Positions 10,716 through 12,522 of a DNA stretch of 62,554 bases are shown here, in pieces; positions within the stretch are counted from its first letter, which is position 1; every line of letters begins with the position of its first letter. Origin of the DNA: Spirochaetaceae bacterium (GTDB taxonomy: Bacteria; Spirochaetota; Spirochaetia; Treponematales; Breznakiellaceae); contig JAISIL010000083.1 in assembly GCA_031262035.1 (NCBI GenBank), forward strand, positions 1 to 62,554, written 5' to 3'. The notes beneath the pieces are model-generated. The model saw nothing but the letters and a program-made list of their open reading frames with translations, was not told the DNA's origin and did not search any database. Made by a program: the position numbers and the translations under genes.

Positions 10716-10744
10716 ATAATATAAAAAATATGAAATCGTGTCAA
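10716..10744 (-). promoter_or_regulatory. Promoter of the citrate synthase operon
   Basis: Minus strand TTGACA (10,744-10,739), 17 nt, TATTAT (10,721-10,716). Start expected near 10,709, leaving a leader of about 11 nt that includes an AAGGA site. Confidence 0.8.
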
Positions 10745-10799
10745 GTAGTTTATCGGCTTTTTTTCACTTTCCTTAAGACTAATCTTCAAGTAATTGAAA

Positions 10800-10985
10800 A
10801 TTCCAGCATAGCGCGGCGCGTACGGGGGGACAGGACAATCTTTGGTTCGGGCTGTTGAAAGTTCCGCCTTCGGCGGCGTCTTGATTTTTGGCCTACCGAC
10901 AAAGCGATGACAGCAACTTTCAAATGCCCTCTCAAAAGATTGTCCTGTCCCCCCTAACTCACGCTGCGCGCAGTAATTTTGAATT
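10800..10985. repeat. Nested palindromic module A
   Basis: Outer arms GGGGGGACAGGACAATCTTT (10,824-10,843) and its complement near 10,933-10,954 pair. An inner stem TTGAAAGTT / AACTTTCAA encloses a core with a CCGCC-TTC-GGCGG hairpin, GCGTCTTG, CTACCGA and ATGACAGC. No ORF is credible here. The core is shared with modules B and C; the outer arms are not, yet still pair. Confidence 0.8.
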
Positions 10986-11247
10986 CCAACAGAGGGAAGT
11001 AGGGGATGAGAGGAAAAGGGCGGCGTCTGACCACTCAGCTATCTCTTGGCGTGGGGTGTCTGGGGAAAGCCTTTTGAAATTAGTTTCAAGTTCCGCCTTC
11101 GGCGGCGTCTTGCGATTCGGTCTCTCGAGTAATCTATGACAGCAACTTTCAAAATAATTTCAAAAGGCTTTCCCCAGACGCCCCAAGAAAGATAAGAGGA
11201 CTTACCCGCCCTTTCCCTCTCCTCCCCTGCCTCTCTCTACTGGAATT
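10981..11247. repeat. Nested palindromic module B
   Basis: A 267-nt imperfect hairpin bounded by GAATTC on both sides. Positions 11,058-11,082 pair perfectly (25 bp) with 11,155-11,179; further out GAGGAAAAGGGCGG pairs with a CCGCCCTTTCCCTC arm. The central core (AAGTTCCGCCTTCGGCGGCG at 11,087 and ATGACAGCAACTTTC at 11,136) is the one shared with A and C. Confidence 0.8.
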
Positions 11248-11437
11248 CAATACAATAATACAACGCTCAGCGTGATGTAGGGGAGGCCTGACAATCTTTT
11301 GTGAGGGCATTTGAAAGTTGCTATCAATGATTTCTCGGTAGGCAATACATCATGACGCCGCCGAAGGCGGAACTTTCAACTAGCCCGAACAAAAGATTGT
11401 CCGGCTCCCCGTACGCAAGGCTTGCTATTTGTAATTC
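11243..11437. repeat. Nested palindromic module C (inverted relative to A)
   Basis: Reverse-oriented relative of module A. GACAATCTTTTGT (11,290-11,302) pairs with ACAAAAGATTGTC (11,389-11,401), with GGGGAG/CTCCCC outside. Between these blocks, module A has ACAG/CTGT whereas C has GGCC/CCGG-type pairs, so stem bases change on both sides together. It ends just before the argC promoter. Confidence 0.8.
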
Positions 11438-11443
11438 GATTAC

Positions 11444-11472
11444 TTGTTATTTTTGAGTTCTATTGATACTAT
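11444..11472 (+). promoter_or_regulatory. Promoter of argC
   Basis: TTGTTA (11,444-11,449), 17 nt, TACTAT (11,467-11,472), then 6 nt to the ATG at 11,479. No Shine-Dalgarno site; likely leaderless. Confidence 0.7.
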
Positions 11473-11478
11473 TGATGT

Positions 11479-12522
11479 ATGAGTAAGAGAGCAGCTATTA
11501 TTGGGGCAAGCGGCTATGGGGGAGTAGAATTAGTCAGGATTCTTGCCCGGCATCCACAGATAAGTGAATTGAAACTTGGTTCGAGGGGGAGTTCGGGGAA
11601 AAAGATTGCTGAAGTCTATCCGAATTTTACCAAATTGTTGAATAATCAGCTTCTTGACCCTGAAGAAGTGATAAATGATGTCGATATTGTGTTTTCTGCC
11701 CTTCCAAATGGGCTGGCGGAACAGTATGCGGCCCTTGCAAGCGGAAAAAACATCCCTTTTATTGATTTATCTGCTGATTTTCGCTTTGCAGATGAAGAAA
11801 TTTATAAAGAATGGTATGGGAGCCCCTATAAGGAGCCCCTTTTGCATGAGCATTCTGTTTACGGCCTTCCTGAAATGAACAGGGAGAAGATAAAAAAGAT
11901 GGCTGCAGGGGAGAAGGCGCCGATTATAGGGAATCCGGGCTGTTATCCGACGGCTTCAACATTGGGAGCGCTGCCTGCATTGAAGCATCATTTGAATGCA
12001 CCGGGGGCGACGATTATTTTTGATGCGGCATCGGGGATTACCGGCGGGGGAAGGGAGCCCCAGCGGAGTTTTCATTTTCCTGAGGCAAATGATTCAATGA
12101 CGGCCTATAAGGTAGGGGCGCACCGGCACACACCGGAGATACAGGGGAATTGTGGAGGCATACCGATAATCTTTACCCCGCACCTTGTTCCCCTGAACCG
12201 GGGTATACTTTCTACTATATATATCCCCTTAAAGCAGCCCATTGCTGAAGATGAGGCAAGGGGGCTTTACGAGAATTTTTACCGGAATGAGCCTTTTGTG
12301 CGGGTTCTGCCCAAAGGTCTTGTTGCTGCCACCGGCCCTGTTCGAAGAAGCAATTACTGTGATATATCGGTGCATCTTTCGTATAAAAAGGATGTATTGA
12401 TTATTATCTCGGCAATTGATAATATGGTAAAAGGCGCTGCCGGACAGGCCGTGCAGAATATGAATATCATCTTCGGGTTCGAGGAGACTGCGGGTTTACA
12501 AGAAATACCGGCTTTGTTTTAA
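11479..12522 (+). CDS. argC: N-acetyl-gamma-glutamyl-phosphate reductase
   Basis: Third step of arginine synthesis: NADPH-dependent reduction of N-acetylglutamyl phosphate to the semialdehyde. GASGYGG near the N-terminus binds the cofactor, and IIGNPGCYPTAS carries the catalytic Cys155. Later motifs GAHRHTPEIQGN and FTPHLVPLNRGIL fit the family. Length 347 aa is standard. argB follows after about 100 nt that contain a palindromic repeat, so the pair forms an arginine cluster, probably transcribed from the promoter just upstream. Confidence 0.96.
   Translation: MSKRAAIIGASGYGGVELVRILARHPQISELKLGSRGSSGKKIAEVYPNFTKLLNNQLLDPEEVINDVDIVFSALPNGLAEQYAALASGKNIPFIDLSADFRFADEEIYKEWYGSPYKEPLLHEHSVYGLPEMNREKIKKMAAGEKAPIIGNPGCYPTASTLGALPALKHHLNAPGATIIFDAASGITGGGREPQRSFHFPEANDSMTAYKVGAHRHTPEIQGNCGGIPIIFTPHLVPLNRGILSTIYIPLKQPIAEDEARGLYENFYRNEPFVRVLPKGLVAATGPVRRSNYCDISVHLSYKKDVLIIISAIDNMVKGAAGQAVQNMNIIFGFEETAGLQEIPALF

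Follow-up and report, generated by a model that had tools for sequence, protein, structure and literature searches.

The window, the whole 62,554-nucleotide stretch analysed here, contains a copy of a repeat family in which one end, usually that of the P1 module, is often placed at a fixed 18–19 bp upstream of the −35 boxes of promoters. This fixed spacing to promoters is the main new point. The feature is probably one copy of a non-autonomous, modular, MITE-like family mobilised in trans by a DDE transposase that targets promoters. Each element comprises from one to three nested hairpin modules flanked by terminal inverted repeats common to the family, and the transposase would land one end upstream of a −35 box. 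New modules would arise by end-to-end joining of elements, and the complementarity of the arms would be kept by hairpin-templated copying or repair, not by selected RNA.

Architecture of the window copy

Three nested hairpin modules occupy positions 10789–11446 of the window, between the upstream regions of the two flanking genes, and the element fills the gap from the promoter of a leftward operon (10744–10716) to argC, which starts at 11479 (Table 1). The first-pass annotation, which was made from the letters of the DNA, had described three adjoining palindromic modules meeting at GAATTC-like boundaries, and this description was borne out: modules A, B, and C meet at GAATTC joints located at 10981–10986 and 11243–11248, with module A extending in full over about 10789–10980 and module B, counted between the joints, over 10981–11248. 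The shared core that it had proposed is likewise present, as GTTCCGCCTTCGGCGGCGTC is exact in all three modules, with an expectation of 0 in shuffles, and ATGACAGCAACTTTC occurs unchanged in A and B and with two mismatches in C. Module B carries a tip core identical to that of P1 on an unrelated stem, and this stem contains a perfect 25-bp run (GTCTGGGGAAAGCCTTTTGAAATTA) unlike the stems of A and C, again as first described. Also in agreement with that description, A and C lie in opposite orientation, and paired positions on both arms differ between them. On a larger scale, the two modules themselves pair as the arms of an inverted repeat of 168 nt that is 78% complementary.

Table 1. Features of the window copy, second modules of the family, and sites of an adjoining dispersed repeat
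Feature	Position	Strand	Remarks
Promoter TTGACA-17-TATTAT	10716..10744	-	leftward operon: 118-aa ORF, TPR lipoprotein-like ORF, citrate synthase
Left terminal inverted repeat, AGTAATTGAAAATTCCAGCATAGC(GCGGC)GCGTACGGGG	10789..10829	+	small internal insertion relative to family
Module A (P1 hairpin)	10824..10954	+	long stem, T-shaped tip
Small tip arm CCGCC-TTC-GGCGG	10864..10876	+	stem invariant across 35 copies
Internal module junction (GCTGCGCGCAGTAATTTTGAATTCC...)	10955..11010	+	homologous to two fused ends
Module B (P5)	10979..11250	+	outer arms 10979-11023/11206-11250; inner stem 11052-11089/11148-11185
Module C (inverted P1 copy)	11249..11446	-	stem 11277-11308/11383-11414
Right terminal inverted repeat (CCCCGTACGCAAGGCTTGCTATTTGTAATTCGATTACT)	11407..11444	-	terminal
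Second module P2			GGGGGCGCCGGATATTTTACC...
Second module P3			GGAATTTTCCTCATAAAAT...
Second module P4			GGGCGGGCGGATATTCTCTG...
Second module P5			module B of the window; stem also present at C84 and C156
ACCACGAATAACACGAATNNCCTTCGGCCACACGAATTTTTACTTACTTATCATAGATTATTCGTGTCGGCGAAGCCGATTCGTG repeat	L122:1-250		C125
ACCACGAATAACACGAATNNCCTTCGGCCACACGAATTTTTACTTACTTATCATAGATTATTCGTGTCGGCGAAGCCGATTCGTG repeat	L123:2030-2163		C72
ACCACGAATAACACGAATNNCCTTCGGCCACACGAATTTTTACTTACTTATCATAGATTATTCGTGTCGGCGAAGCCGATTCGTG repeat	L124:2000-2150		C167
ACCACGAATAACACGAATNNCCTTCGGCCACACGAATTTTTACTTACTTATCATAGATTATTCGTGTCGGCGAAGCCGATTCGTG repeat			also near C191 and C192

The window copy can be written as P1-P5-P1' and is the sole three-module copy of that type among the loci examined; a different three-part copy, in which P2 is truncated, is found at C131. 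Its own ends are imperfect, and on the left 44 bp separate its end from the start of the −35 box, which is not the canonical spacing. The hairpins contain only short chance ORFs, and a promoter scan of the gap placed no promoter inside it besides those that flank it.

A modular family and its stems

Module A is present in at least about 45–50 copies in the 3.07 Mb genome, and at least about 55–60 loci carry the family, with about 58 recognised by end or core features in the contigs around the matches. At least 50 tip cores were counted in these contigs, a number that includes two chance matches (C53:2596 and C85:15249), and the end pattern gave 49 matches over both strands vs 0 for a reversed control pattern. 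By a simple ORF call, no copy lies inside an ORF, and all are intergenic. Many contigs end inside an element, and the repeats therefore probably broke the assembly.

A covariance model, a check proposed in the first pass, was searched with up to 16 candidates scored per genome and found the repeats in the genome of origin alone among 200 genomes of the same family; searches with module A and with the end pattern gave no match in 58 and 150 relatives, respectively. Exact-motif scans with the core and end patterns found none in GTDB contigs or viral contigs, a plasmid collection yielded no match to the family, and the open-access literature searched held no description of one like it. Judged by sequence, the family is restricted to this lineage in everything searched.

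Members of the family share the common inverted ends AGTAATTNNNAATTCAAGC.... Complete copies have AGTAATTNNNAATTCRAGCNTNGCGTACGGGG at the left and its complement at the right, with one to three modules between them. The common module, P1 (A and C of the window), occurs alone or together with P2, P3, P4, or P5, to which it is joined by an internal junction that resembles two fused ends. A P1 sub-family (C43:8629, C178:18038, C180:10559, and C191:1656) has an altered left arm and an extra small hairpin (GAACTTCAGTAAACTGAAGT). In the C155:9323 region (L120), the P1 hairpin is cleanly deleted and the end and junction remain, the state that loss of a palindrome by deletion would be expected to leave. 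Just inside the ends of elements, or adjoining them, is a second dispersed repeat, ACCACGAATAACACGAATNNCCTTCGGCCACACGAATTTTTACTTACTTATCATAGATTATTCGTGTCGGCGAAGCCGATTCGTG, which appears to be another hairpin family.

The elements are short (0.2–0.7 kb) and gene-less, with conserved terminal inverted repeats and multiple dispersed copies, as is characteristic of MITEs. Flanks resembling a target duplication, in the form of a 6-bp repeat in one register with 6–7 of 9 positions matching, are seen at C20, C84, and C31 and are absent in most copies. Shared flank words sum to 112 vs 98.7 ± 4.6; the register was chosen after looking, and over all copies the 9-bp register gives p of about 0.02. The dozens of dispersed intergenic copies, their shared terminal inverted repeats, the duplication-like flanks in some of them, and the lineage restriction all favor the non-autonomous transposon that the first-pass annotation had listed among its readings.

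That annotation had also taken the retention of pairing despite sequence change as a sign of selection on folded RNA or single-stranded DNA. The element does fold strongly: the predicted RNA fold of 667 nt has an energy of −401 kcal/mol vs −203 in shuffles (z of −26), the single modules folded separately reach z values of about −7 to −10, and P2, P3, and P4 likewise fold strongly (z of −8.5 to −10.9). Among 35 P1 copies, however, both sides have changed at just 3 of 41 stem pairs, a count that exceeds letter shuffles and consists of few events among related copies. The pairs of the tip arm CCGCC-TTC-GGCGG are invariant in all 35, and a neighboring segment of 5–6 nt is highly variable. This segment (CTTGAT-NNNNN-GCCTACCGA; window 10881–10892, with its counterpart in every P1 copy) varies much more than the sequence around it, the rest of the module being 94% identical.

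Some versions of the arms carry self-matching block variants (GGGGGAGCAGG/CCTGCTCCCCC and GGGGGGACAGG/CCTGTCCCCCC), and a variable end triplet, read by hand, agrees between the left and right ends in 11 of 16 elements vs 4 expected. Because the ends of an element tend to agree in this way, the arm differences fit palindrome symmetrisation. Together with module shuffling, such symmetrisation would appear to explain the pairing-preserving differences better than selection on RNA; we infer that the arms may be made symmetrical by palindrome copying or repair, which would account for the apparent compensation without RNA. As a caution, RNA selection does not have to be behind stem changes that look ‘compensatory’ in a palindromic repeat.

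It is improbable that these are structured RNAs or regulatory DNA, in which case the hairpins would be kept in front of promoters to serve as insulators, as activators resembling UP elements, or as genes for small RNAs, and their dispersal would be secondary. The very stable folds, the conserved T-shaped tip, and the fact that the AT-rich end adjoins promoters, which lie on its outward side, would all suit such a role, but covariation is limited as described above, the family has no Rfam match at the gathering threshold, the promoter scan is without an internal promoter, and the payload modules vary freely between copies. Nothing was found that points to a new small RNA family. Matches to Rfam mir (microRNA-precursor) models are sub-threshold chance hairpin matches, and an integron attC-like or viral-telomere-like reading of the T-shaped tip found no supporting evidence.

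Placement of the ends beside promoters

An outward sigma70-type promoter, defined as a match to TTG...TAxxxT at 9 or more of 12 positions, lies within 8–50 nt of 31 of the 62 distinct termini vs 1.5 in dinucleotide-shuffled flanks, and only two inward-reading matches were found. Fourteen of these promoters start within a 4-nt window, 27–30 nt from the start of the end pattern, where 0.12 would be expected, and under a uniform null the observed clustering was reached in 0 of 20,000 trials. The peak corresponds to a spacing of 18–19 bp between the terminal AATTACTG and the −35 box. These statistics are exploratory, since the pattern and thresholds were picked after a first view of the flanks; the effect is large. 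The two ends are not equivalent, as 26 of 40 P1 ends face a promoter vs 5 of 22 other ends (Fisher p of 0.003), and neighboring genes point away from the element in a ratio of 29:12 at the P1 end and 16:14 at the other side. The spacers between end and promoter have no obvious common sequence by eye.

The fixed spacing suggests insertion beside promoters by a transposase, and selection against insertion inside promoters could yield part of the placement. Such selection is unlikely to be the whole account. An ordinary transposase without promoter targeting would then have left its insertions to purifying selection alone, which would remove the lethal or costly ones in genes or in the RNA polymerase footprint and spare those at the nearest tolerated position, the upstream edge of the promoter. 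All copies are intergenic, copies are fewer from −55 onward, and a random-insertion IS256 type exists in this genome, each as this account would have it. However, it predicts a sharp inner edge followed by a flat distribution, whereas the observed counts drop beyond 30 nt, with 14 of 31 in the 4-nt window, and the bias toward the P1 end is also at odds with it.

Proposed mobilisation and relation to known elements

The assembly has no match to PF06782, which we take to be the ISLre2 transposase model and which matches 3 of 394 genomes of the order, and none to NF033572 (ISKra4). PF01797 (Y1 transposase) likewise gave 0 matches in this 99%-complete genome, with control genomes positive. This last result bears on the target of a Rayt-like enzyme, which the first-pass annotation had offered as a further reading, and makes it highly improbable that these are elements of the REPIN/RAYT kind, mobilised in hairpin form by a Y1 (HUH) transposase. 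Their palindromic, intergenic nature, the tens of copies, and the paired and inverted units recall that system, but the long inverted-repeat ends and the duplication-like flanks in some copies are unlike REPINs, and the units are several times REP length. Searches with the end patterns found no transposase with matching ends in the genome itself, in 150 relatives, or in GTDB or viral contigs, although the fragmented assembly could omit an autonomous copy. Because ISLre2, ISKra4, and RAYT enzymes were undetected in the assembly, the mobiliser is one that we infer. Near the end of contig C51 (L162:1390-1857 and 2-739), an IS256-type transposase is cut by the contig end, with a reverse-transcriptase/maturase-like ORF identified by eye on the same stretch. 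As a candidate mobiliser, this IS256-type ORF was rejected, no AGTAATT-type end being visible by eye just upstream of its start.

A possible, though less probable, reading is that these are previously undescribed modular nested-hairpin transposons, landed directionally upstream of RNA polymerase by promoter-recognising machinery and exchanging modules by end-to-end joining. The favored reading, a MITE-like family mobilised in trans by a DDE transposase that targets promoters, would have broader consequences. In the literature examined, the only bacterial examples of promoter-directed transposition come from two autonomous lineages of mutator-like elements; if the signature also belongs to a family with many copies and no genes, and in a lineage poor in PF06782, the strategy would be broader. 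The family would also supply about 60 insertions made in nature for the study of promoter recognition by a transposase, and would mean that strong hairpins can be packed beside promoters genome-wide, with possible effects on insulation and expression.

Several known families share parts of this organization. REPIN/RAYT systems are also palindromic intergenic repeats amplified within one lineage, but the present elements differ in having much longer hairpins and long inverted-repeat ends and in the lack of a detected Y1 transposase. RUP of pneumococcus and other IS-derived MITEs are similarly short and gene-less, with terminal inverted repeats and presumed mobilisation in trans; RUP consists of one simple unit of 107 bp whose ends are of the IS630 type, whereas the modules here are composite and no matching IS was found. 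The nearest modular parallel is offered by the BOX elements of Streptococcus pneumoniae, with over 100 copies, variable modules between fixed ends, terminal inverted repeats, strong folding, and a MITE-like character (PMC3049150). BOX elements are over-represented in the gaps of convergent gene pairs, and the text consulted mentions no fixed spacing to promoters (PMC3049150); their sequence is unrelated, and the modules of the present family are in contrast separate nested hairpins located beside promoters.

The closest resemblance in placement is to TnGBS, ISLre2, and ISKra4. Two mutator-like transposase families insert 13–17 bp upstream of sigmaA promoters (Guerillot et al. 2014, PMC3942029), with distances from the inverted repeat of 15–17 bp for TnGBS and 13–17 bp for the promoter-targeting p-MULT families; these have inverted repeats of 18–39 bp, direct repeats of 8–9 bp, and an orientation set by asymmetric ends (PMC3942029). 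The present family shares with them a one-sided placement, upstream of the −35 box and at a short, fixed spacing from it, together with inverted repeats in the 18–39 bp range, duplication-like flanks in some copies, and an orientation bias. Unlike the present gene-less elements of 0.2–0.7 kb, theirs are autonomous (IS or ICE, 1.1–52 kb) and carry a transposase gene of a type undetected in this assembly, and their spacing is 13–17 bp rather than 18–19 bp, which places the ends here 1–4 bp further out. By analogy, the family thus appears to behave like a promoter-targeting mutator-type element, yet we would not file it in the TnGBS, ISLre2, or ISKra4 families.
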